A DNA stretch of 64,000 nucleotides from Burkholderiaceae bacterium 26 (GTDB lineage: Bacteria > Pseudomonadota > Gammaproteobacteria > Burkholderiales > Burkholderiaceae). The position numbers and the translations under genes are program-made. This document shows, piece by piece, positions 44,342-62,374 of the stretch. Every line of letters starts with the position of its first letter. The stretch's first letter is position 1. The stretch is from positions 62,001 to 126,000 of the forward strand of contig JYOB01000002.1 of assembly GCA_000955795.1 (NCBI GenBank). Direction: 5' to 3'. The notes beneath the pieces are model-generated. The model searched no databases. It was not told where the DNA came from and saw nothing but the letters and a program-made list of their open reading frames with translations.

Positions 44342-45573
44342 GCACGCGCTGTCGCCGATGCCGCCTCTGGTGACGCCACGCGCCGCACCGCAATCAGCGC
44401 CGCCAGTGCCGCAAGGTATACCGCGGCCATGGCGACAAAGCCTGCACGCCACCCAAACAGACCCGTCGACAACCCCGCCACGCCCAGGCCGATGAGCGCG
44501 CCGCCCTTGGCTGCGCTGCTGCACAACCCCAAGGCAAAACCTTGACGATCTTCCGGGCTGGTTTCTGCCACCAGGCTGTTGAGGACCGGCAGCAGCCCGC
44601 CCAGGCACAGACCCCACGCCAGGCGCGCAGCGATGAACGCGGCTTCCCCTTGCGCAAAGCCTTGCCAGAGCGCAGTAAGGCCGCAGACGGCGGTCAACGC
44701 ACAAACGCGCCCCAGCGTGACGTGCACGGGCAAGCCTGCAAAACGCTTGGCCCACCAGCGCGCAGACAACGCCAGTGTCGCGGCCGTAGCGCTGTAGGCC
44801 AGACCGGCCAGCATCACCGACCGATGCAGCGTCTCGGTGATATACGGCGCGAGGAAGCTTTGCGGCATGACGCGCGCGGCCTGCACTGCCACCATGCCAA
44901 GCAGCAGGCCGATCACCAAACCGCCCAGCGGAGCGCGACGTGCCTGGCGAGCATCGGCGTTCGGCTCGGTCTCGGATCTCGGAGCGCGCTTGATCGCGGG
45001 TAGGCAGAACATCGCCAGCGGAATGCACGCCAGGATGACCACCGCGCCCGCCGTGTTGGCCATGCGAAAGCCCATCCACCCCACGAGCCACGCACCGACC
45101 GGTGGCGCCATGAAGCTGCCGCACGCCGTGACGGTCTGCAGATCGGCGAAGACGCGCCGGCGCATGTCGGCGGGCGCCACGCGCATGGCGTAGATTTGCG
45201 CGGCTGCAAGGAAGCCCGCCAGCCCGCCTTGCACCGTGCGCGCCAGCAGTACGCTTGCTGCTGAGTCTGCATAGACCGACCACAGCTGTGATGCCGCCAG
45301 CGCGACCAGCGCCCGCAGGATCATCGGCTTGGGCCCGACGCGGTCGGCCAAGCGGCCCCACCATGGCGCGGTGACGAGCGTGGCGGCCATCGGCGCAAAG
45401 TACGCTGCGCTAGCCACCCACGCGAATGGCACGTGCGGCACCGGCGACAGCTCACGCAGGAACAGCGGCCAGAACGGCCCCGTCATTTCCATCGCGCCCA
45501 TTGAAAGGGCCTGGATGACGAGGAGCCACCGGATGGCCGCCCGCCACGCGTCCACAGTCGTTGCCGGGTTCAT
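44329..45573 (-). CDS. MFS exporter of the siderophore unit
   Basis: A 414-aa major facilitator with about 12 helices. The motif WWGRLADRVGPKPMIL (about 70-85) is the MFS loop 2-3 signature, and GGLAGFLAAAQIYAMRVAP follows. Its start overlaps the end of the NIS synthetase gene by four bases (ATGA), so the pair is translationally coupled. By that context it most likely exports the siderophore, like LbtB next to LbtA in Legionella or FslB next to FslA in Francisella. Confidence 0.86.
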   Translation of the reverse strand: MNPATTVDAWRAAIRWLLVIQALSMGAMEMTGPFWPLFLRELSPVPHVPFAWVASAAYFAPMAATLVTAPWWGRLADRVGPKPMILRALVALAASQLWSVYADSAASVLLARTVQGGLAGFLAAAQIYAMRVAPADMRRRVFADLQTVTACGSFMAPPVGAWLVGWMGFRMANTAGAVVILACIPLAMFCLPAIKRAPRSETEPNADARQARRAPLGGLVIGLLLGMVAVQAARVMPQSFLAPYITETLHRSVMLAGLAYSATAATLALSARWWAKRFAGLPVHVTLGRVCALTAVCGLTALWQGFAQGEAAFIAARLAWGLCLGGLLPVLNSLVAETSPEDRQGFALGLCSSAAKGGALIGLGVAGLSTGLFGWRAGFVAMAAVYLAALAALIAVRRVASPEAASATARAQRA

Positions 45574-47537
45574 GCGCGAGCTGCTGCGGCCAGCGGATTG
45601 GGCAGCGCGGCATGCATGTCGTCAGACTGGTCGCGCAGACGCATGCGGACGAACGTCTTGAACGTCCATGGCGCTTCGAGCAGCGCGTGGCGCTCGCGCA
45701 TCCAGGTGTCGGCATCCAGCGCTGGGCGGTTGGCTTCGAACACGGCGTGCATGGCGTCATGCCACTGGCGTAGCCCGACGACGCTGCCGTGCTCGGGAAA
45801 CAGCGCCAGCGCCAGTTCACCGATATGGCACAGCAGGAAGGCGTGGATCAGCTTCTTGCGCGGGATGTCCCGATCGGGATACGTGGTGTGGCCGGCACGG
45901 AACGGCTCGATCGAGAAGCCCTGTGCCTGCAGCGTCGGCAGCGCGATCTTCACGTCGCCAAAGTCGCGCACAACCAGCCGCACCGGCATGCCGGCCGCGT
46001 CGATGACGACGAAGGTGTTCTGCTGATGCGCCTCCAACGCAATGCCGTAACGCAGATACAGGCCGACGATGGCCAGAATGGCGACGCGCAGGTAAGCCTC
46101 GAAGAAACGCGCGGCCCGCTCGGCACGCGTGCCGTCGGCTTGGCGCGCCAGCACGGTGTCGAGCAGCAGGGGCGCCGCTGCCTGCGTCATGTCGGCGGTG
46201 AAGTCCGGCGTGAAGAGGGCACCGACCGGCAGCAGCCGCGCGTTGCCGGCAATGCGCGTGGTGGGGTTGTCGCGCACGATCATCGACAGATGCCGGGCGC
46301 GATCGTCATCCGTGCCAGCCACGTGTATACCGTGGCGTTCGGGCACGATCGACAGGACGCTCGCCAAGCCTGCATCGATCGCGAGAATGCGTTCCAGCAG
46401 GGCGCTCACGCGCGGCCCCATCACTGCCGATTTTGGCGATACGGTGCGCTCAACGCTGGTCAGCCGCATGCTGACCGGCAGCTTGAGCATCGGGCCGCCC
46501 GGCGCGTCGGTCGCGGCCACGGTACGGAATGACATTGTCGGGCGGGCGGCAATGCTGATGTCCGGCAGGTTGATCAATTCGCCGGCGGCGAATTCAGCGG
46601 CGAAGGTCTCGCCGAGCGTCGTGTCGCGCTGCCAAGGGTGAACGGGCAGCGGCAGCCACGCTTCGGGCGCAAGCTGGCGTGCCAGCAAGGCTTTGCGAAA
46701 CGCCGCCATGGCTTCGGGGAAGGTCGCTGCGAACCAGTTGGCGTACGGCTGCACACCGTCCATCGTGGTGACCTGCAGGCGATGCGCCGCGACGGCCACC
46801 ACGCCGATGGGCACCTGAGCCTCGAACTCTGGTGAGAGCGCGATGACCTGTTCAGGCGCGAGCCCCAACCGTGTCTTGTAGGCTGGATGCCACGGATGCC
46901 CGCCGGTGCCCCACTGCTCGGTACGCGCCAGGGCGTGCGGCGTGCCATCGCCGCAGAGCAGGGCCAGCGCGTCCTGCGACGCCGCAACGCGATGCTCGGC
47001 GGCTAGACGCTCGCCCCAGCCCAGTCGATAGGCCTGGCACAGCGTGTCGTTGTCCTGGCTGTTGTCCAGTTCCGTCGCAAGCCGGGCGATGGCGGCCAGG
47101 CGGTGGGCGTCGGTGGCATCGCCAATGTCCAGCATGGGCGCGAGCCAGTGGAGCAGGGCGGATGGACGTTCAATGGGCGTCGGCGGGCGGTCGTGCGCCA
47201 GCACAGCGACGTCGCCCGTCAATGTCCAGCTGCCGAGCGCGCCCGGCCGCAAGCCGGTGAAGCGCAACAGCACGCGCTGCTGCCAGATCGGCAGCAACGT
47301 CACATCGGCGCGGGTATCGGCGATGAGTTGATCTGCATTGAGCAGCGCTTCACGAAACAGCGCCTGGAGCAGGCGCGACAGCACCCGCCGCCGTGCCAGT
47401 TGTTGTGCCGCTGACCAATGCTCGGCCTGCACGCCAACTTCGAGCAGCGCGGGAATGGATTCAAGACGGAAGTTGCCGGCCGCGGCGGCAGCGGATGCGG
47501 TTTGGGTCTTGGCGGCGGTATCGGATCGACGTTGCAC
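45570..47537 (-). CDS. NIS siderophore synthetase (IucA/IucC family), rhizoferrin/legiobactin type
   Basis: A 655-aa NRPS-independent siderophore synthetase that joins citrate or a similar acid to an amine. Typical motifs: HPWHPAYKTRLGLAPEQV, PVHPWQRDT, SFRTVAATDAPGGPMLKLPVSMRLT and EAHQQNTFVVID. The start is a GTG at 47535-47537 with GTAGGAG upstream; a frame open to 47663 adds no conserved sequence. One synthetase plus one MFS exporter is the layout of lbtAB and fslAB, which make rhizoferrin-type siderophores, and enantio-rhizoferrin has been reported from Ralstonia pickettii. The product assignment is therefore reasonable but unproven. Confidence 0.9.
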   Translation of the reverse strand: MQRRSDTAAKTQTASAAAAAGNFRLESIPALLEVGVQAEHWSAAQQLARRRVLSRLLQALFREALLNADQLIADTRADVTLLPIWQQRVLLRFTGLRPGALGSWTLTGDVAVLAHDRPPTPIERPSALLHWLAPMLDIGDATDAHRLAAIARLATELDNSQDNDTLCQAYRLGWGERLAAEHRVAASQDALALLCGDGTPHALARTEQWGTGGHPWHPAYKTRLGLAPEQVIALSPEFEAQVPIGVVAVAAHRLQVTTMDGVQPYANWFAATFPEAMAAFRKALLARQLAPEAWLPLPVHPWQRDTTLGETFAAEFAAGELINLPDISIAARPTMSFRTVAATDAPGGPMLKLPVSMRLTSVERTVSPKSAVMGPRVSALLERILAIDAGLASVLSIVPERHGIHVAGTDDDRARHLSMIVRDNPTTRIAGNARLLPVGALFTPDFTADMTQAAAPLLLDTVLARQADGTRAERAARFFEAYLRVAILAIVGLYLRYGIALEAHQQNTFVVIDAAGMPVRLVVRDFGDVKIALPTLQAQGFSIEPFRAGHTTYPDRDIPRKKLIHAFLLCHIGELALALFPEHGSVVGLRQWHDAMHAVFEANRPALDADTWMRERHALLEAPWTFKTFVRMRLRDQSDDMHAALPNPLAAAARA

Positions 47538-47749
47538 GAGGGCTCCTACGGGACATGAGCGTGTGCAGGCGAGCGGGGCTCGGCCCTGCAACACAGGGGG
47601 TCCAGATGTAGGGGCCGCTTCAGAGACAGGCGGGAATGCAACGCCCTCCCTGAGGGGCTGCAAGGGAGGCTCGTTCTTCTAGGTATGTGCGCCACGCAAA
47701 CAGCCTGGTCGGCTGCGCGGTGGCGCCATTTGGTGCGCTGCAGTGTAGA

Positions 47750-48138: not shown

Positions 48139-48219
48139 CTTTGTTCGTTGCGTTCAGTCAGTCGCTGCCCCGTGTTGTTCCCCCCCACCCCCCAAATACA
48201 CAGACATCAGGACGAGAAC

Positions 48220-50322
48220 ATGACCTCCAACAGTCGCCGTGGTTTTCTCCGTTCCGCCGCCCAGTTGGCTGCCGCATCCGCAGCCATGGGCGCGGTGCCC
48301 GAAGGCATTCGCAAGGCGCTGGCGATTCCCGCTCATAACGCGCACCGCAATATCGAAGACGTGCAGCACATCGTGATCCTCATGCAGGAAAACCGCTCGT
48401 TCGACCATTACTTCGGCACGCTCAAGGGCGTGCGTGGGTACGGCGATACGCGCACCGTCACGCTGCCGACGGGCAAGAGCGTGTGGCACCAGCCGCTGGC
48501 CGGAGGCGTGGGCGAAGTGCTGCCGTTCCGCCCGAGCGCGCCGGATCTGGGCTTGCAGTTCCTGCAAGACCTGCCGCACGGCTGGAACGACACGCACCTT
48601 GCCGTCAACGGCGGGCGTTACGACGGCTGGGTCCCGCACAAGGGCACCACGACGATGGCGTACCTGACGCGCCAGGACATTCCGTTCCACTACGCGCTGG
48701 CCGACGCCTTCACCATCTGCGACGCCTATCACTGCGCCACGCCCACGTCGACCGATCCGAACCGTTACTACATGTGGACGGGCTACGTCGGCAACGACAA
48801 CGTCGGCGGCGGTCCCGTGATCGACAACGCAGAAGCCGGCTACGGCTGGTCGACGTATCCGGAAGTGCTGGAGGCTGCCGGCATCTCGTGGAAGATCTAT
48901 CAGGACATCGGCACCGGGCTGGACGCCGCCGGCTCCTGGGGCTGGACGAGCGACGCCTACATCGGTAACTACGGCGACAACTCGCTGCTGTACTTCAAGC
49001 AATACCAGGACGCGCAGCCGGGCAACCCGCTGTACGACAAGGCGCGCACCGGCACCAACGCCTCGGCGGGCGACGGCTACTTCGACATCCTCAAGCGTGA
49101 TGTGCAGAACGGCACGTTGCCGCAGGTGTCATGGATTGCCGCGCCCGAGGCTTTCTCGGAGCACCCGAACTGGCCAGCCAACTACGGCGCCTGGTATATC
49201 GATCAGGTCTTGCAGGTCCTCACCTCCAACCCCGAGGTGTGGAGCAAGACCGCGGTGTTCATCACCTACGACGAGAACGACGGTTTCTTCGATCACCTCG
49301 TCCCGCCGTTTGCATCGTCGGGCAGCAATGGGCTGTCGACAGTCGACACCACGGGCGAATACTTCCCGGGCAACAGTACATACGCAGCCGGCAGCTACGG
49401 CCTGGGCCAGCGCGTGCCGATGCTTGTGGTATCGCCGTGGTCAAAGGGCGGCTACGTGTGCTCGGAAACGTTCGACCACACGTCGATCATCCGTTTCATC
49501 GAGCAACGCTTCAAGCGCACGCACCGCGTGAAGTCGCCGAACATCTCGAAGTGGCGTCGCGCCGTGTGCGGTGATCTGACATCCGCGTTCAACTTCGCCA
49601 CGCCCAACGAGGTGGTGCCTGCATTGCCGAGCACCGCCGCCTACGTGCCGAAGGACAAGCTGCGCCACGCCAGCTACGTGCCGCTGCCGCCGCTGGTGCA
49701 GGCCGTACCGAAGCAGGAAGCCGGTGTGCGCCCGTCGCGCGCCCTGCCGTACGAACTGTTCGTGCGCGGCCGCCAGGATGAAGCCGCCGGCAAGTTCCAA
49801 CTGGAATTCGTGAACACCGGCGACGTGGGTGCAGCTTTCCTCGTCTACACCGCCGGCAGCTCCGACGCGCCGCGCACCTACACGGTAGAAGGGGGCAAGC
49901 GCTTGTCGGACAAGCTGGCCGTGAGCGCGGGCGGCGCCTACGACTTCACGGTGCACGGCCCGAACGGCTTCCTGCGCCGCTTTGCCGGCAAGCTCGCGCT
50001 GTCGGGCCTGCTGCGTCCGCATGGCCATGCGTTGGAAGTGAAGGAAGGCTATGACGTGGCCAACGGCAACCTGCAACTGCGCCTCATCAACCACGGCCGT
50101 GCGCCCACCGTCTTCACAATCAAAAGCGCTTACACGGGCGAGAGCGTGCAGCGCGAAGTGCGCGGCGGTGACGATGCGTCGGTGTACCTGGACCTGCGCA
50201 GCCAGCACGCCTGGTACGACTTGACCGTCACGGCCAGCACCGATGCCGGCTTCGAGCGTCGCCTTGCCGGTCACGTTGAGACAGGCCGCGTCAGCGCGTC
50301 TGATCCGGCGCTGAGCGCATAA
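48220..50322 (+). CDS. Tat-exported phosphocholine-preferring phospholipase C
   Basis: A 700-aa secreted phospholipase of the PLC/acid phosphatase (PlcH/PlcN) family that cleaves phosphatidylcholine to diacylglycerol and phosphocholine. Tat signal SRRGFLRSAA (residues 4-13) directs folded export. Catalytic region: HIVILMQENRSFDHYFGTLKG near the N-terminus, CDAYHCATPTSTDPNR, and FITYDENDGFFDHLVPP. Two C-terminal DUF756-type beta domains (about 520-610 and 615-690) follow, as in Pseudomonas PlcN/H. ATG at 48220 with AGGACGAG upstream. It is near betA/betB, which would use the choline it yields after dephosphorylation. Confidence 0.94.
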   Translation: MTSNSRRGFLRSAAQLAAASAAMGAVPEGIRKALAIPAHNAHRNIEDVQHIVILMQENRSFDHYFGTLKGVRGYGDTRTVTLPTGKSVWHQPLAGGVGEVLPFRPSAPDLGLQFLQDLPHGWNDTHLAVNGGRYDGWVPHKGTTTMAYLTRQDIPFHYALADAFTICDAYHCATPTSTDPNRYYMWTGYVGNDNVGGGPVIDNAEAGYGWSTYPEVLEAAGISWKIYQDIGTGLDAAGSWGWTSDAYIGNYGDNSLLYFKQYQDAQPGNPLYDKARTGTNASAGDGYFDILKRDVQNGTLPQVSWIAAPEAFSEHPNWPANYGAWYIDQVLQVLTSNPEVWSKTAVFITYDENDGFFDHLVPPFASSGSNGLSTVDTTGEYFPGNSTYAAGSYGLGQRVPMLVVSPWSKGGYVCSETFDHTSIIRFIEQRFKRTHRVKSPNISKWRRAVCGDLTSAFNFATPNEVVPALPSTAAYVPKDKLRHASYVPLPPLVQAVPKQEAGVRPSRALPYELFVRGRQDEAAGKFQLEFVNTGDVGAAFLVYTAGSSDAPRTYTVEGGKRLSDKLAVSAGGAYDFTVHGPNGFLRRFAGKLALSGLLRPHGHALEVKEGYDVANGNLQLRLINHGRAPTVFTIKSAYTGESVQREVRGGDDASVYLDLRSQHAWYDLTVTASTDAGFERRLAGHVETGRVSASDPALSA

Positions 50323-50340
50323 GCGGTACCCACGCAAAAA

Positions 50341-50379
50341 CGGCCCGCCGGCGTGGTCTGCCGGCGGGCCGCTTTTTTT
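50341..50379 (+). terminator. Strong terminator after phospholipase C
   Basis: CGGCCCGCCGGC (50341-50352) pairs with GCCGGCGGGCCG (50360-50371), seven-base loop, then CTTTTTTT. The preceding A-run could also serve the minus-strand small gene. Confidence 0.93.
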
Positions 50380-50393
50380 CCGACGCTTCTGCG

Positions 50394-50504
50394 TCAGAGC
50401 TGCTTCGTGTACGTGCGTGCTTGATACAGCGCCAGCGCGCTCAGCCCGACGATCACCACGATCGCCAGCACATCGGCAAACGGATAGCCCCAATATTGCG
50501 TCAT
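50394..50504 (-). CDS. 36-aa membrane protein, last gene of the permease cassette
   Basis: A very short gene of 36 codons, MTQYWGYPFADVLAIVVIVG at the start, a single transmembrane helix (about 10-27) and a polar tail ending TYTKQL. AAGGAG lies upstream of its ATG (50502-50504), and that ATG overlaps the stop of the preceding gene as ATGA, a strong sign of translation. I do not recognise a family. It may be a small subunit or regulator of the permease encoded by the same operon. Confidence 0.75.
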   Translation of the reverse strand: MTQYWGYPFADVLAIVVIVGLSALALYQARTYTKQL

Positions 50505-50803
50505 TGCGTTGTCTCCTTCGGTTCGATGTCGAGCAGGCCGGTATCGGCCATGCGTTGACGGCCAAACTCGGTGATGGCGTAGCGGAAGTGCACCTTGCCG
50601 GTGGCTTCGTCCAGCGTGTCTTCAGCCGTTTGCACCAGGCCGCCGGAGTAGAGATCCGCGAGGATGGCGCGAATGCTGCCCGTCCAGTATTCGTCTTCGG
50701 GTTTGCTGTATTCAATGCAGGTGCGATGGGCGATTTCGCTGTCCCACAGCGTGTCGTTGCTCGCGAGCAGTTGCAGAATGTAGCCCTTCATGTGCAGCTT
50801 CAT
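50501..50803 (-). CDS. 100-aa winged-helix-like protein of the permease cassette
   Basis: A 100-aa protein of no recognised family. Its pattern looks like a winged helix: KGYILQLLASNDTLWDSEIA (helix 1 and turn), a helix around HRTCIEYS, DEYWTGSIRAILADLYSGGL (possible recognition helix), then a wing-like AEDTLDEATGKVHFRYAITE. ATG at 50801-50803; a second ATG at residue 5 is possible. It overlaps the permease gene upstream by four bases and the 36-aa gene downstream by four, so the three are translated together. It could be a cassette-specific regulator; that is inference. Confidence 0.7.
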   Translation of the reverse strand: MKLHMKGYILQLLASNDTLWDSEIAHRTCIEYSKPEDEYWTGSIRAILADLYSGGLVQTAEDTLDEATGKVHFRYAITEFGRQRMADTGLLDIEPKETTQ

Positions 50804-51870
50804 GCGTGCGTCTCCGTGGTTGCAGGTGCCACGCCGCCGCGGATCACTTCCAGGTTTTCGGAGCTTTCCGACACCATCACGAAGCCGCCGAAGATCACCA
50901 GCGCCAGCCCAATCAGGAAGTACCACTCCGGAAACTGCAGCGTGAAGATGGCGGTGAAGAAGGTGGCGAACATCGCGTAGAACGCGCCCAGCGCCTGACC
51001 GCGCCCCACGCCGATCAGCGGGAATGACTTGTACCAGGCCACCGCGCAGAACGAGAAGGTGACGCCGCCCACGACCAGCCACAGCAGCGCCTTGCTGTGG
51101 ACAATACCCGAGGCAATCTCCGTAACCGGCACAGGCACATGCGCAAACAGCGCGATGGCCGGCAGGATGAAGACGACCCAATAGATGGCCTCGGCGGTGT
51201 AACGGATGGAGACCCCGCAGTCAGGGTCGGTCACGTCCATGGCGCGGCCCACGATCGCGCCTTCCAGGCCCCAGCCGATCGCCGCCATGGCGCCGCCCAG
51301 GTAGCCGATCCACTGATTGCCGCCGCTGTGCGATTCGGCCATCAGTGCCGGCGCGTAGATCGCCACGCCGCCCAGGATGATGATGGCGATGCCCACCGCC
51401 GCCCGCGCGCTGATGCGCTCGTTGTACCAAAGCTTGGCGACCGTCGCGCCCACCACCGGATATAGCAGCCCGGCCACTGCCGCGAACACGGCGCCGACAT
51501 AGCCCATCGCCAGATAGGAGCCGAAGTTGGCCATCAGTCCGCCGACGACTGCCGCAATGAAGTACCAGCGCGAGATCTTACGGAACTGGCCGATGGTGCG
51601 GAAGTAATCGCCCAGCTTGCCGAGGGAGCCGAGCCACACCCACTGGAAGAGCGTCACCATGACGCTATGGAACGCCGTGATGACGGCCGCGCAGACAAGG
51701 AAGACGCGCGGATCGGAAAGGTCCATCGTGGCAAACGGAGATTCATGCCAGACGGCCGTGCCCGGCACATACCAGGCGCCCCAGAGGATGGCCGCCCATA
51801 GCGCCCAGCGGTAGCCCCATTGCAGCGTGCGTCGATGATGTGCCGCGCGGGCGGCAGAGGAAGAGGCCAA
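50800..51870 (-). CDS. DMT-superfamily (EamA-like) permease
   Basis: A 356-aa membrane protein with about ten helices and the internal duplication expected of DMT transporters: ALWAAILWGAWYVPGTAVWH in the first half and SFCAVAWYKSFPLIGVGRGQ in the second, with VGAVFAAVAGLLYPVVGATVAKLWYNERI as the EamA repeat. The start is TTG at 51870 with AAGGAG upstream. Substrate unknown. It lies between phospholipase C and betBA and is coupled to two small genes, so choline, phosphocholine or betaine transport is worth testing, but nothing in the sequence defines the substrate. Confidence 0.8.
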   Translation of the reverse strand: MASSSAARAAHHRRTLQWGYRWALWAAILWGAWYVPGTAVWHESPFATMDLSDPRVFLVCAAVITAFHSVMVTLFQWVWLGSLGKLGDYFRTIGQFRKISRWYFIAAVVGGLMANFGSYLAMGYVGAVFAAVAGLLYPVVGATVAKLWYNERISARAAVGIAIIILGGVAIYAPALMAESHSGGNQWIGYLGGAMAAIGWGLEGAIVGRAMDVTDPDCGVSIRYTAEAIYWVVFILPAIALFAHVPVPVTEIASGIVHSKALLWLVVGGVTFSFCAVAWYKSFPLIGVGRGQALGAFYAMFATFFTAIFTLQFPEWYFLIGLALVIFGGFVMVSESSENLEVIRGGVAPATTETHA

Positions 51871-52058: not shown

Positions 52059-53504
52059 CTACGACGTGCCCATCTCCAGCACCGTATCCACCACACTAAT
52101 CAGGTGCAGCGGTGCGTCGGTGGCCGGGTCGCGCGCCAAGGACGTGGTCATGCGCACTGGCACTGCCGAGCCATCGCCGCGTACCAACTGCAGCGAGAGC
52201 GCATACGCGGGCACCGTACCGGCCAGCAACTCGCCGTATTGACGCAGATGACTAGCGAGGTCGTTGCGGTGGGTAAGGTCCAGCAGCGTGCGTTGCTGCA
52301 GCGCCGTTTCAGGCTGGCCCAGCAGCGTGCACAGCCACGGGTTGGCGCGCAGGCAGCGGCCTTCCAGGCTGACCTGGGCGATACCGACCGGCGCCTGCTC
52401 GAACAACGTCCGCAGCTTCGCCTCGCTGTCGCGGAAGGCCGCTTGTGCTTCCACTTCAGCGGTAATGTCCTGCGCCGCGCCGATCATCGTAGGCTTGGCT
52501 GCGGAAGGGTCCTGCGCTTCGCCTTCCTCACGAAGATGGCGACGCGAGCCGTCGGGCAGGGTGATGGTGTATTCGACGCGATACGGCTGCCGTGAGGCGA
52601 CGGCCCGGTCCAGCACGGCCTGCACACGGGCGCGATCCGCGGGAACGATGGCGTCCAGATAGCGCGCCATCGTCACCGGCGTGGATTGCGGCGCCCAGCC
52701 GAAGATGCGGTAAGCCTCATCCGTCCAGCGGCAGGCGTCGCTGCCGGGCTCCCAGATCCAGCTGCCGAGGTGTGCGATCTGTTGCGCCTTGGCCAGCAGC
52801 GCCTCCGAATCACGTAACGCGGCTTCGGCCGTGTGGCGCTCGGTTGTGTCCAGGCTCAGGCCGATCATCTTGACCGGGCGGTCCTGCGCGTCACGCACGA
52901 GCGTCGCACGTGAGACGATCCATCGCACAACGTCGGGCGCGGGGGCAATGCGGAATTCATGCTCGTAGACGCCCCCCGCACTCAGGTTCTGCGAGACCGC
53001 GGCCTGCACACCCGGCACGTCTTCGGCGAGGACGCACTGCCAAAAATCTTCCAGCGTGCGGATCGGCCGGCCAAACAGGCGCGCGACATTCGGCGAATAG
53101 GCGACCGCGTCCGTCAGCAGGTTCCACTCCCACGTGACCACGCCGGAAATCTCCTGCGCGAAGGTCATGCGTGCCTCGCTTTCCATGATTGCGGCGATGT
53201 GCTTTTGGCGGCCTTCGCGGGCGCGGGCGTCGGTCGTCAGGCTCGCTTCCAGGTCGGCCAGGGCGCGGTCGCCGTAGCGCAGCCAAAGCCAGTTCACGCT
53301 CAGGAAGCGGGCCAGCGCCAACAGATTGGCGTATTCGATCTCGCCGCCGCGCGTCCATTTGTGGACAGCGGAGGGTGACACCCCCAGCGCTGCCGCCACT
53401 TGCTTGAGCTGGATGCGGCCACGCGTCAGCACGCCTTTGAGGCGGCCGGCAAAGCTGTCTTCATCGAGCGGGCCGTCTGGCGGCGAAAGTGCTGCGGCGG
53501 TCAT
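52059..53504 (-). CDS. XRE helix-turn-helix regulator with three PAS domains
   Basis: A 481-aa regulator. An N-terminal Cro/CI-type helix-turn-helix (about 18-70: LTRGRIQLKQVAAALGVSPS, VHKWTRGGEIEYANLLALAR) is followed by three PAS domains (about 110-235, 238-360, 365-481), the first two ending in typical PAC segments (PVKMIGLSLDTTERH, KPTMIGAAQDITAEVEA). There is no kinase, GGDEF, EAL or HD output, so DNA binding is the output and the PAS domains sense the signal. It is divergent from betB and stands beside the permease cassette, and no betI exists nearby; a choline or redox/energy sensor is a reasonable guess. Confidence 0.85.
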   Translation of the reverse strand: MTAAALSPPDGPLDEDSFAGRLKGVLTRGRIQLKQVAAALGVSPSAVHKWTRGGEIEYANLLALARFLSVNWLWLRYGDRALADLEASLTTDARAREGRQKHIAAIMESEARMTFAQEISGVVTWEWNLLTDAVAYSPNVARLFGRPIRTLEDFWQCVLAEDVPGVQAAVSQNLSAGGVYEHEFRIAPAPDVVRWIVSRATLVRDAQDRPVKMIGLSLDTTERHTAEAALRDSEALLAKAQQIAHLGSWIWEPGSDACRWTDEAYRIFGWAPQSTPVTMARYLDAIVPADRARVQAVLDRAVASRQPYRVEYTITLPDGSRRHLREEGEAQDPSAAKPTMIGAAQDITAEVEAQAAFRDSEAKLRTLFEQAPVGIAQVSLEGRCLRANPWLCTLLGQPETALQQRTLLDLTHRNDLASHLRQYGELLAGTVPAYALSLQLVRGDGSAVPVRMTTSLARDPATDAPLHLISVVDTVLEMGTS

Positions 53505-53774
53505 GGAGTGGATTTACTGGGAGTGATTCGCGACAGTATAGCGTGCCGAATATAGCAAAAATCTATTCAAATTTGATGTTGTTAGGTCATAACGATTGGC
53601 CTGAAGCAACTAATTTTTCCTAGACTAGTCCAAAATTCTCCAAAGGTAAATAAAAACACCAACAGTGAATTTACGGGTCGCCGCATCCGATTGGCGTCTG
53701 ACAGGACACCATGGTGCCGGCATTTCGGGCGCCGACTTCTTTGTGCGCCCCCATCATCCATAGGGGTACTCGAT
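53505..53774. promoter_or_regulatory. Divergent control region between the PAS regulator and betB
   Basis: About 270 bases, clearly AT-richer than its surroundings (53520-53680). It contains the 8-bp palindrome GACTAGTC near 53623 and the small palindrome AAATTT near 53570, but no clear -35/-10 pair was identified. It must hold the promoters of both flanking genes and is the most likely binding site of the PAS regulator. Confidence 0.5.
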
Positions 53775-55298
53775 ATGACGCAAGCTTCCCTTTCAACCGA
53801 TTTCCGTTCTGCCACCCTGGCTCCTCGTCTTGATCTCTACATCGACGGTCAGTGGGTGCAGCCCGAAGGCGGCGTGTACCGCGACATCGTCGATCCCGCC
53901 ACCGAAAACGTCCTGACGCAGGCCGCCGATGCCTCCGTGGCCGATGCGCAGCGCGCCATTGCTGCCGCCCGCCGCGCATTCGACGAAGGCCCGTGGCGCC
54001 AGACCGGCACGCGCGAGCGTGCGCGCCTGCTCAATCGCATTGCCGACGCCATCGACGCCGACGCCGAGAACCTGGCGACGCTCGAATCGCTCAACACCGG
54101 CAAGACCATCATCGAAAGCCGCTGGGACATGGACGGCATTGCTGCGACGTTCCGCTACTTCGCGGGCCTGGTCGCCACGGAATCCGGCCTGATCAACGAG
54201 GCACCGGACACCGTCATCAGCCGCACGCTGCGCGAGCCGGTGGGCGTGTGCGGCCTCATCACGCCGTGGAACTACCCGCTGCTGCAAGCCGCTTGGAAGA
54301 TCGCGCCGGCGCTGGGCGCGGGCAACACCGTCATCGTCAAGCCGAGCAACCTGACGCCGCTGACCACGCATCGCTTTACCGAGCTGCTGATTGAAGCTGG
54401 CGTGCCGGCGGGCGTGTTCAACCTCGTCACGGGCGCAGGTGAAGCTGGTGCCGAGCTGTCGCGCAACCTCGATGTGGATCTCGTGTCGTTCACGGGCGGC
54501 GCTGTTGCAGGCGCGGCAGTCATGAGCGCCGCTATCGGCAACTTCAAGAAGATCGGCCTGGAGTTGGGCGGCAAGAACCCGAACATCATTTTTGACGATG
54601 CGGATTTCGATACCGCCGTCGATTACGCAGTCAACGCGGCGTTCTTCCATGCGGGCCAAGTGTGCTCGGCCGGATCGCGCCTGATGCTGCAGGATGGTAT
54701 CCACGACCGCTTTGTCGATGCGCTGGTCGAGCGCGTCAAACGCATCCGCGTGGGCAATGGCTTCGCTGAAGGCACGGAGATGGGCCCAGTGCAATCCGCC
54801 TTCCAGCGCCAGAAGATCATCAACATGATTCAGGCCGGCGTGCAGGAAGGCGCGGTGCTGCGTTGTGGCGGCAAGGCACCGGAAGGCGAGGCATTCCAAC
54901 GAGGCTTCTGGCTGGAGCCGACCGTGCTGACCAACGTGCGTGACGACATGAAGATCGCCACCGAAGAAATCTTCGGCCCGGCACTGACCGTCGAGCGCTT
55001 TTCCACCGAAGAAGAAGCGGTGCGCCGTGCCAACGCCACGCCGTTCGGTTTGGCAGGCGCTGTGTGGACGGCCGACCTGAACCGCGCCAACCGCGTGACC
55101 CGCGCACTGCGTTTCGGCACCGTGTGGGCCAACGACTATCACCCGTACTTTCCCGAGGCACCGTGGGGCGGCTACAAGGCCAGCGGCATTGGCCGTGAGC
55201 TGGGCCGCGGCGGTCTGGACGAATACACCGAACTCAAGCACAGCTACATCAACCTCGCTCCGCAGCCGATGGGCTGGTTCGGTGCGGACGCTGAGTAA
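53775..55298 (+). CDS. betB: Betaine aldehyde dehydrogenase
   Basis: NAD(P)-dependent aldehyde dehydrogenase oxidising betaine aldehyde to glycine betaine, 507 aa. Motifs: TPWNYP (Asn166), Glu263 in LELGGKNPN, nucleophile Cys297 in [12 protein letters not shown] and [11 protein letters not shown]-terminal [16 protein letters not shown] fits the family. The ATG at 53775 is preferred, with AGGGG upstream. It is followed 17 bases later by betA, so both steps of choline oxidation are in one operon. It lacks a betI partner. Confidence 0.9.
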
Positions 55299-55315: not shown

Positions 55316-57037
55316 TTGACCACGAATACCGCACAGGAATATGACTACATCATCGTGGGCGCCGGCTCGGCTGGCTGCGTGCTGGCTGCGCGCCTGACCG
55401 AAGACCCGGACGTGACCGTGCTGCTGCTCGAAGCAGGCGGTCCCGACCACCGCTGGGATTTCCGCACGCAGATGCCCGCGGCGCTGGCGTATCCGCTGCA
55501 GGGCACCACGTACAACTGGGCCTACGAAACCGAGCCCGAGCCGCACATGAACAACCGCCGCATGTCGCAAGGCCGTGGCAAGGGGCTGGGCGGCTCATCG
55601 CTCATCAACGGCATGTGTTTCATTCGCGGCAACGCGATGGACTACGAGCGCTGGGCGAGCGATTTTCAGTTGGACGATTGGACCTATGCCGACTGCCTGC
55701 CGTACTTTCGCAAATCGGAAACGTATGACAAGGGCGCCAACGACTGGCATGGCGATTCCGGCCCGCTGCAGGTGACCACGCCCAAGCACGACAACAGCCT
55801 GCTGTTCCACGCCTTTATCGAAGCCGGCGAGCAAGCCGGTATCCCGGCCACCGACGATCTGAACGGCTATCGCCAGGAAGGTCTGGGCCCGATGGACCGC
55901 ACCGTGACCGCCAAGGGCCGCCGCGCCAGTACATCGCTGTGCTATCTCGACAACGCACGCAAGCGGCCCACGCTGACCGTGCTGCCGCGCGTGCTGGCTG
56001 ATCGCGTGATCTTCGACGGCACGCGTGCCGTGGGCGTCGAGGCGCTGATGGATGGCAACCGCGAAACATGGCGTGCGCGCCGCGAGGTGATCGTCACCAG
56101 TGGCGCCATCGCTTCTCCGCAGTTGCTGCAGCGCTCAGGCGTGGGCAATGCGGATGACCTGCGTGCGATGGGCATCCACTCGGTCGCGCACCTGCCGGGC
56201 GTGGGCGAGAACCTGCAGGACCACCTGGAGATGTACATCCAGTACGAGTGCCTACGTCCGGTGTCGATCTACGAAAACACGCTCTGGTACAACAAGCCGA
56301 AGGTTGGGCTGGAGTGGTACATGCACGGCACCGGCGCCGGCGCCAGCAACCACTTCGAGGCGGGCGGCTTCATTCGCAGCGATGACAGCTTCGAGTGGCC
56401 GAACATTCAGTACCACTTCCTGCCGCTGGCCGTGAACTACGACGGCAGCAACCCGGTGAAGATGCATGGGTTCCAGTGCCACGTGGGTTCGATGCGTTCT
56501 CCGTCTACCGGTTACGTGAAGCTCGCTTCGCGCGATCCGCGTGACAAGCCGCGCATCCTCTTCAACTACATGGCGCACGATGTGGATTGGCGCGAGTTTC
56601 GCGCCGGCGTGCGGATCACGCGCGACATCATCGCGCAGCGTGCCTTCGATCAATATCGCGGTCGCGAAATCAGCCCCGGCCCGAGCGTGCAGACCGACGC
56701 CGAGATCGATGCCTTCGTGCGCCATCACGCCGAGACCGCCCTGCATCCGTCTTGCACCTGCAAGATGGGTTCAGCAGACGATCCGATGGCAGTGGTTGAC
56801 AACGAAGGCCGCGTGCACGGCTTGGAGGGCCTGCGCGTGGTCGACGCGTCGATCATGCCGCGCATCGTTACCGGCAACCTGAATGCGCCGACGATCATGA
56901 TGGCGGAGAAGATCGCCGACCGGATTCGCGGTGTGGCGCCGCTCGCGCGCTCCGATGCGGCGTTCTATGTGCATGGGAAATCGCCGCTGCAGGCGCCAGC
57001 CAAACCGCTGGTCGCCAGTGAACTGGTGGTGCCCTGA
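55316..57037 (+). CDS. betA: Choline dehydrogenase (GMC oxidoreductase)
   Basis: FAD-dependent membrane-associated enzyme oxidising choline to betaine aldehyde, 573 aa. N-terminal FAD-binding GAGSAG (15-20), [20 protein letters not shown] and [18 protein letters not shown] signature, then catalytic His in HPSCTCKMG and [12 protein letters not shown]. The start is TTG at 55316 with GGGAGGG six bases upstream; no in-frame ATG is available near. Stop overlaps the next gene by one base (TGATG). Confidence 0.93.
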
Positions 57038-57846
57038 TGCGCTGGCGCAAGGTCGCGACGATGGTGGGCGGGGCGGCGGCGTGTGCTGCTGTGCTGCCCG
57101 CGCTGGCGGATGACGTGCCGGCCAGCGAGGACAAGCGCTGGTCGGCCAATGCATCGGTTGTTTCGCAATATGTGTCGCGCGGCCTGCGCCAGACATGGGG
57201 AAAACCTGCCCTGCAAGCCGGCGTTGATTACACCGCGCCAAGCGGTTTCTATGCCGGTGTGTGGGGCTCCCAAGTCAGTGATCACGTCATCGCAGGTGCG
57301 CATGCCGAGATCGATACCTACCTCGGCTATGCCGCGACCGTTGCGCATGGCGTGGAGTTGACCACCGGGCTCTACCGCTACTGGTACCCCGGTACACGCT
57401 ACGACAAGGCTGTCGGCGGCGGCCCCGCCACCGGCTACGACTACACGGAATGGATGGTCGGCGCCGGCTGGCGCGGCGTGTCGGTCAAGCTATGGACCAC
57501 GCTGTCGAACTACTTCGGCTTCGATGGCAATTCGCTGGCTGACGGCATCGATCGCGGCAGCCGCGGTTCCACCTACGCCGAAGCCAACCGGGCCGTGCCC
57601 TTGCCCAACGACTTCACACTCGGCCTGCACGTCGGCCACGAGCACGTGCGCAACCACAGCGCATTCAGCTTCACGGATTACCGCATTGAACTCTCGCGGC
57701 CCATCAACAAGTTCCTGACGCTGTCTGCTGCTTTGACTGGTGCGGATGCATCTGCCTATGCGCATCAGCTCTCCGCGCGCAATGGAGCAGATCGCATGAC
57801 GCTCGGCCGACGCACGGTCGCACTCAAGTTGACGGCCACGTACTGA
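57037..57846 (+). CDS. TorF-family outer-membrane protein
   Basis: A 269-aa beta-barrel protein of the TorF putative porin family. Signal peptide about 1-25 (MVGGAAACAAVLPALA), then alternating strands beginning SANASVVSQYVSRGLRQTWGKPAL and ending LTATY, a typical beta-barrel C-terminus with terminal aromatic Tyr. The ATG overlaps the betA stop codon, so it is in the bet operon and may serve entry of choline or a related nutrient. Channel activity has not been shown by sequence alone. Confidence 0.85.
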   Translation: MRWRKVATMVGGAAACAAVLPALADDVPASEDKRWSANASVVSQYVSRGLRQTWGKPALQAGVDYTAPSGFYAGVWGSQVSDHVIAGAHAEIDTYLGYAATVAHGVELTTGLYRYWYPGTRYDKAVGGGPATGYDYTEWMVGAGWRGVSVKLWTTLSNYFGFDGNSLADGIDRGSRGSTYAEANRAVPLPNDFTLGLHVGHEHVRNHSAFSFTDYRIELSRPINKFLTLSAALTGADASAYAHQLSARNGADRMTLGRRTVALKLTATY

Positions 57847-61411: not shown

Positions 61412-62374
61412 ATGACCGAAATCCGCGAACCGATGCGCTTGCCGTCACTTGGCGCGCTGCGGGTGTTCGAGGCGGCGGCCCGCTATGAGAGTTTTTCGCG
61501 TGCGGCGACGGAGCTGTTCGTTACGCACGGCGCCGTCAGCCATCAGATGCGCACCCTGGAGGATGAGCTGGGCGTGCCGCTGTTCGAGCGGCGCGGCAAG
61601 CGCGTCATGCTCACCCACGCGGGCCGTGCATACGCCGATCGCGTGCGCGAGGCGCTCGACCAGATCGCCCAGGCCACGCACCAGCTGCGCGCCGGCAACC
61701 GCGACAACCGCCTGGCCATCAGCACGATGCCGTCGTTTGCCGCGCGTTGGCTGACGCCGCACATCGGCACCTTCATCGAGCGCCATCCCGAGTTGGAAGT
61801 GGAGCTGTTCTCCAGCCCCGCGCTGGTCGACTTCGCGCGCGAAGAGGTGGACGTGGCATTGCGCATGGGTTCGGGCAACTATCCGGGCCTGTACGTGGAA
61901 AAGCTGCTCGACGATGTGTTCTTCCCGATCTGCAGCCCCGCGTTCAACGGCGGACGGTTGCCACGCACGCTGGCCGAGATGGCGAGCATGACCTTGCTGC
62001 GCAGCGAGGGTGAGGCATGGAAGCCGTGGTTCGATGCGGCCGGCCTTGAGGGGTTTGTCGAGCCACGCGGCGGGCTGATGTTCCAGGATTCGTCGTTGCT
62101 ATTGCAGGCCGCGGCAGCGGGGCAGGGTATTGCGCTGATCCGCCCGACGTTGGCCTTCAATGACCTGCTGACCGGTCGCGTGGTGCGCCTGTTCGAGACG
62201 ACGATCCCATGCCCATGGAACTATTACTTCGTGTGCCCGCACAGCGCGCTGCAGACGCCGAAGATGCAGGCGTTCCGCACGTGGCTGCTGCCGGAGATTG
62301 CGGCGTTCAAGCTCAAGCTGGCGGGGCTGATGAACGACAACGCGGTGTGCCTGGGGCACGTCTCGAAGGGCTGA
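61412..62374 (+). CDS. LysR-family regulator, GcvA-like
   Basis: A 320-aa LysR transcription factor. N-terminal winged helix: LPSLGALRVFEAAARYESFS, AATELFVTHGAVSHQMRTLE, FERRGKRVMLTHAGRAYADRV; effector domain thereafter (RLAISTMPSFAARWLTPHIG, DVALRMGSGNYPGLY). The profile is that of GcvA-type regulators. ATG at 61412 has CGGAGGGA upstream. Divergent from DUF2917. Function not known beyond likely control of its neighbour. Confidence 0.92.
   Translation: MTEIREPMRLPSLGALRVFEAAARYESFSRAATELFVTHGAVSHQMRTLEDELGVPLFERRGKRVMLTHAGRAYADRVREALDQIAQATHQLRAGNRDNRLAISTMPSFAARWLTPHIGTFIERHPELEVELFSSPALVDFAREEVDVALRMGSGNYPGLYVEKLLDDVFFPICSPAFNGGRLPRTLAEMASMTLLRSEGEAWKPWFDAAGLEGFVEPRGGLMFQDSSLLLQAAAAGQGIALIRPTLAFNDLLTGRVVRLFETTIPCPWNYYFVCPHSALQTPKMQAFRTWLLPEIAAFKLKLAGLMNDNAVCLGHVSKG

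Follow-up and report, generated by a model that had tools for sequence, protein, structure and literature searches.

The 64,000-nt window analyzed here (the whole stretch, positions 62,001 to 126,000 of contig JYOB01000002.1 of Burkholderiaceae bacterium 26, whose genome comprises 5.68 Mb in 44 contigs) carries on its minus strand, at positions 50394 to 51870, a cassette of three overlapping genes. They encode a permease of the drug/metabolite transporter (DMT) superfamily, a 100-aa winged-helix protein (P100), and a 36-aa protein with one membrane helix (S36), which we read as a probable uptake system for trimethylammonium compounds. The locus is laid out as follows.

50800..51870, minus strand: DMT/EamA permease, LicB-like, 356 aa, TTG start
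50501..50803, minus strand: P100, winged-helix protein, 100 aa (AlphaFold2 fold; permease-adjacent in relatives)
50394..50504, minus strand: S36, one-helix membrane protein, 36 aa (hydropathy, constant length, low polymorphism ratio)
50338..50378, no strand assigned: hairpin resembling a terminator, with T runs on either strand, located between the S36 and phospholipase C genes, read from the sequence

An earlier prediction made on the bare sequence (the original prediction) had placed the three frames and both ATGA junctions correctly: plus-strand TCAT, i.e., an ATGA overlap, occurs at 50800-50803 and at 50501-50504. An AAGGAG motif lies just upstream of the permease TTG codon and another ahead of the S36 ATG, and the hairpin is common to the end of S36 and the convergent phospholipase C gene.

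Conservation of the trio

Permease relatives were collected by a scan of named genomes, one for each species, that used a six-sequence permease alignment and the peptide patterns WG..WA.W and A.LWGAWY. The seeds came from trio carriers, but the permease alone served as query. Of the 123 relatives obtained, the best 80 were kept and analyzed, and their loci were searched with P100 and S36 profiles of eight sequences each. All three genes were present in 78 of the 80 loci. The other two sequences end inside the missing gene, within an S36-like frame (L088) or a P100-like frame (L097), so that none of the 80 loci shows a true absence of a trio member. P100 adjoins the permease in 79 loci, the 80th being cut by a contig end, and S36 is set off from P100 by 791 bases in L104, 296 in L044, and 150 in L043. 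The small frames, on whose conservation in relatives the original prediction had staked itself, are thus retained, and the genes are adjacent across the sample rather than scattered.

The cassette occurs in many families of Pseudomonadota, six genomes of Bacillaceae/Paenibacillaceae, a Thermincola-labelled bin, and an Actinomycetota bin. Confinement to the genus was rejected on the grounds of this span over Pseudomonadota, Bacillota, and the Actinomycetota bin. We likewise rejected chance as the origin of the small frames, since both are found next to the permease well beyond the genus, hardly vary in length, and show a low ratio of nonsynonymous to synonymous polymorphism (pN/pS). S36 measures 36 to 38 aa in 39 aligned members, and simple Nei-Gojobori counts within the genus gave pN/pS values of 0.25 for S36 (12 sequences) and 0.27 for P100 (7 sequences). 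Four of five plasmid matches were inspected, the fifth coming from a Paracoccus species already covered; in two annotated plasmid records, whose gene tables are incomplete, no feature is annotated at the place of S36. Several further genomes, for example G964, G113, G773, and G267, were not counted in addition to the corresponding loci L076, L087, L065, and L045.

Exact ATGA coupling had been taken as the telling feature of the cassette and did not survive as such. Among the 71 loci that keep the usual gene order and have a start assigned, by rule, to each of the three genes, the overlap occurs at 33 permease/P100 junctions and 11 P100/S36 junctions. Gene adjacency is conserved and the coupling is not; the latter is lineage-specific.

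Distribution is patchy. P100 turned up in 5 of 370 genomes searched at class level and in 2 of 397 at phylum level; a single-sequence query found it in 2 of 250 genomes from the order. The source genome is included in each count. Besides the same five class genomes, the S36 profile matched two marginal cases within frames of 479 aa (E of 7.8e-5) and 342 aa (E of 8.1e-4), taken as chance; separate occurrence of P100 and S36 was rejected accordingly. Of the 16 genomes of the genus, 13 gave a P100 match and 12 a permease match, and a close betA copy (at least 92% identity) resides in exactly the 12 genomes with an intact trio, the best betA match in the other four being about 45% identical. At the 13th P100 match (G263, locus L014), S36 survives but P100 and the permease are reduced to their ends. 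This remnant adjoins a lipA-like gene, and close betA is absent, which suggests a joint loss of the permease and the choline genes. In a broken trio in G643 (L123, L138), P100 is open, S36 is split between two reading frames, and fragments of the permease lie about 11 kb off in several different frames, which may reflect either decay or assembly error; TMADH-like (trimethylamine dehydrogenase-like), GcvT-like, and NarX/NarL genes lie nearby. Pairwise distances of the carrier correlate with those of P100 (at 0.86) and S36 (at 0.70; 1225 pairs, 50 rows), which mostly reflects shared ancestry and is not taken as proof.

A LicB-like carrier and its two small partners

The permease scores 40.8 bits against Pfam EamA (gathering cut-off 28.2), which places it in the DMT superfamily. 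Matches to LicB reached E values of 1.9e-11 with a 52-row profile and 2.8e-4 with the window protein alone, and the predicted permease structure, of about ten helices, has the LicB fold. By sequence and predicted fold, the choline importer LicB of Streptococcus pneumoniae (PDB 7b0k, 7paf) is its closest solved relative, at about 20% identity in structural alignment. The nearest named permeases, from Ralstonia sp. NFACC01 and R. pickettii, are 98% and 97% identical.

The AlphaFold2 model of P100 (mean predicted local distance difference test score, pLDDT, 91.6) matches winged-helix folds, bearing out the description of the middle protein as winged-helix-like, and lies close to RosR, PadR, and MarR-type regulators. 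The window protein scored 14.3 bits against the PadR model, below the cut-off of 27. No family matched above its cut-off: the best Pfam E value among 52 P100 members was 0.003, to another family, and weak PadR and GntR matches were found in 6 of the 52 each (best E of 0.015 to 0.027). P100 is acidic, and its helix 3 and wing bear little positive charge. S36 has the single hydrophobic helix foreseen for it (19 residues, mean hydropathy 2.37); searches of its 39 members against Pfam (best E 0.0099) and of the window protein alone against NCBIfam (best E 0.17) returned no significant match.

Two loci, L055 and L078, carry the permease, a linker, and P100 in a single frame, and L119 is a third case; S36 stays a separate gene in all three. 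The fusion puts P100 on the C-terminus of the carrier, which would be cytoplasmic, judging from the ten-helix layout. A mixed alignment (A8) that set P100 rows inside the carrier was excluded from folding.

Genes around the cassette

By sequence, the window neighborhood is a choline-use region, consistently with the choline setting originally proposed for the trio.

48148..50322, plus strand: phosphocholine-specific phospholipase C, convergent (TIGR03396, 866.9 bits; cut-off 580.25)
52059..53504, minus strand: protein with helix-turn-helix (HTH_3) and PAS domains (HTH-PAS), probable choline-cluster regulator
53691..55298, plus strand: betB-like aldehyde dehydrogenase (TIGR01804, 616.5 bits, below the cut-off of 668.6); frame as listed, true start possibly further in
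55316..57037, plus strand: betA, choline dehydrogenase (TIGR01810, 870.8 bits; cut-off 732.1)
57037..57846, plus strand: TorF-family putative porin (TIGR02001, 128.9 bits; cut-off 47.15)

Relatives of the HTH-PAS protein occur in the same 13 loci as close betA, and a Pfam scan found no enzymatic output domain in it; it is likely a regulator of the choline cluster with PAS sensing. TorF relatives, found in 17 of 84 clustered loci and also in G643 and Azoarcus pAZKH, could form an outer-membrane pore for the same compounds.

Elsewhere, the search for the trio and its neighbors that the original prediction had proposed revealed it in distant phyla beside genes for choline or trimethylamine breakdown. 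At least one marker lies in the fetched flanks of 65 of the 80 loci (39 of the 52 left when permeases are thinned at 92% identity): betA above 60% identity in 13, trimethylamine monooxygenase (Tmm) in 20, a TMADH-like flavoenzyme in 28, a trimethylamine N-oxide (TMAO) permease in 26, GmaS in 4, and pyrrolysine-type methyltransferases in 2 (L064, L084). The representatives of Tmm and of the TMAO permease score above the cut-offs of their NCBIfam models. For the TMADH-like representative (728 aa), only related flavoenzyme models match, below cut-off, and its name is our assumption from size and setting. L064 holds a corrinoid protein gene and genes for trimethylamine and dimethylamine methyltransferases, each with an in-frame TAG, as expected of pyrrolysine genes; L084 has the same methyltransferase gene clusters plus PylB. 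The tmm and cassette permease genes share a 4-base overlap in 15 of 17 co-directional pairs, and tmm is on the other strand in L071 and L074. Choline, trimethylamine, and TMAO all have a trimethylated nitrogen. The choline chemistry first envisaged for the cassette stands as part of what is probably a wider class that includes trimethylamine, as the Tmm, TMADH-like, and methyltransferase loci suggest.

Mapped on a quick permease tree (with long branches at L113 and L115), five context labels change 4 times, the minimum possible, with unlabelled rows omitted. With these as a sixth label there are 12 changes against a shuffled mean of 46.6, a clustering that near-copies favor. Because labels change so rarely, the cassette appears to have stayed together while the adjoining enzyme changed a few times. 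Loci without a marker comprise six from Bacillota with an acyl-CoA-dehydrogenase-like enzyme; L045, L047, and L048, with NarX/NarL and PAS genes and, in two of them, electron transfer flavoprotein (ETF) genes; L085, with ETF, GcvT-like, and PAS genes; L083, with a PAS gene; and L065, L072, L096, and L112, where none of the searched representatives was found. The Bacillaceae/Paenibacillaceae flavoenzyme loci (L067, L069, L070, L093, L110, L111), one of which (L110) also has genes for a cupin protein and an FAD-synthetase-like protein, perhaps represent a further route of amine breakdown.

Proposed function of the cassette and competing explanations

We propose, with a probability of roughly 0.62, that the trio works as a single system that imports trimethylammonium compounds (choline in the case of the window), the carrier being joined by S36 in the membrane as a subunit and by P100 on the cytoplasmic side as a partner. 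LicB kinship and gene context point to the substrate class, and the fusion and constant company of the small proteins suggest their accessory roles. The LicB-like carrier would move the substrate over the inner membrane, with S36 packed on it and P100 on its inner face, where the winged-helix domain might gate, sense, or stabilize. Imported choline would be oxidized by BetA and BetB, and TorF may pass choline through the outer membrane. We advance a more exacting form only tentatively and as a whole: the LicB/MttP-like carrier would work only with P100 as gate or sensor and with S36, whose conserved FWG(Y/F)-type N-terminus, at the outer face, would help handle trimethylammonium cations, and this three-subunit DMT transporter would be a widespread bacterial trimethylamine/choline importer serving at least four unrelated catabolic routes.

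Several observations weigh against the proposed uptake system. The fold of P100 is that of DNA-binding regulators. Because L055, L078, and L119 form one clade (SH-like approximate likelihood ratio test, SH-aLRT, 99), the fusion was probably one event, and in the fused model the P100 part has low confidence (block means 45 to 61). Markers are lacking in 15 of the 80 loci, 43 weaker permease relatives lie outside the 80-locus sample, and a permease relative from Methanohalobium (40% identical) has no P100 or S36 within the 12.9 kb examined. LicB is not known to need partners, and no P100 or S36 counterpart is known for it; it serves choline decoration of the cell surface rather than choline breakdown.

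The original prediction had offered a stable complex or a local regulator, and the latter is the main rival for the role of P100. On this reading P100 would bind DNA and control its own carrier operon, perhaps while the carrier holds it at the membrane to signal substrate; S36 would be a small anchor or relay, and the carrier would work alone. Genes for small regulators often neighbor their targets, and the structural neighbors of P100 and its weak PadR/GntR matches fit such a role. Yet P100 is the permease's own C-terminal domain in one clade, which makes this the weaker reading; its charge weakly argues against DNA binding, and other regulators lie near several loci (HTH-PAS in 13, NarX/NarL/PAS types elsewhere). 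On balance we consider autoregulation unlikely. Still less probable is that the two small proteins help to assemble or stabilize the carrier without being lasting subunits: small one-helix proteins can act in this way and both keep constant company with the carrier, but the fusion holds P100 on it permanently. Export of an intermediate or toxic amine instead of substrate import is the least credible alternative. The DMT superfamily includes exporters and direction is not readable from sequence, but the closest solved relative is an importer, and the cassette sits beside the genes for the initial step of four distinct catabolic routes.

The kind of carrier encoded by the cassette is already known (LicB, MttP), and its two constant small partners appear new. 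CydX and KdpF are short conserved membrane peptides encoded with a large membrane partner; likened by description, S36 shows the same gene pairing with a different partner. Consistently with the expectation that the trio was undescribed, we found no account of it in the open-access literature searched. MttP is a putative trimethylamine permease of methanogens, of the DMT superfamily and encoded beside trimethylamine methyltransferase, according to the accessible text of two papers (PMC11708041, PMC5688252), the first of which states its function as unproven. The L064 and L084 cassettes share this methyltransferase setting, a likeness drawn from description alone; unlike the cassette, one archaeal relative (Methanohalobium) is without both small proteins in the 12.9 kb examined. 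The choline demethylation locus of Eubacterium limosum includes an EamA-family protein whose closest relatives are, for its authors, MttP and LicB (PMC12155760). Compared by description, it is likewise a DMT carrier in a choline locus, and the accessible part of that paper mentions no small partner. For trimethylamine uptake, the available portion of a 2024 paper names only the unproven MttP and TmaT, a sodium/trimethylamine symporter (PMC11708041). TmaT has trimethylamine uptake in common with the system proposed here but belongs to the betaine/choline/carnitine transporter (BCCT) family, not to the DMT carriers.

Trimethylamine uptake is poorly known. As a neighbor of tmm, TMADH-like, mttB, and betA genes, the cassette offers a candidate importer that can be tested directly, in marine and soil bacteria as well as in methylotrophs. 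If P100 and S36 prove to be subunits, they would define a multi-part DMT carrier in which a winged-helix fold acts on a transporter, and S36 would be a 36-residue subunit easily missed by annotation. Apart from the choline genes, the window encodes at 45570-47663 a siderophore synthetase of the IucA/IucC type that is akin to FslA, the rhizoferrin enzyme, and scores below the cut-off of the FslA model.
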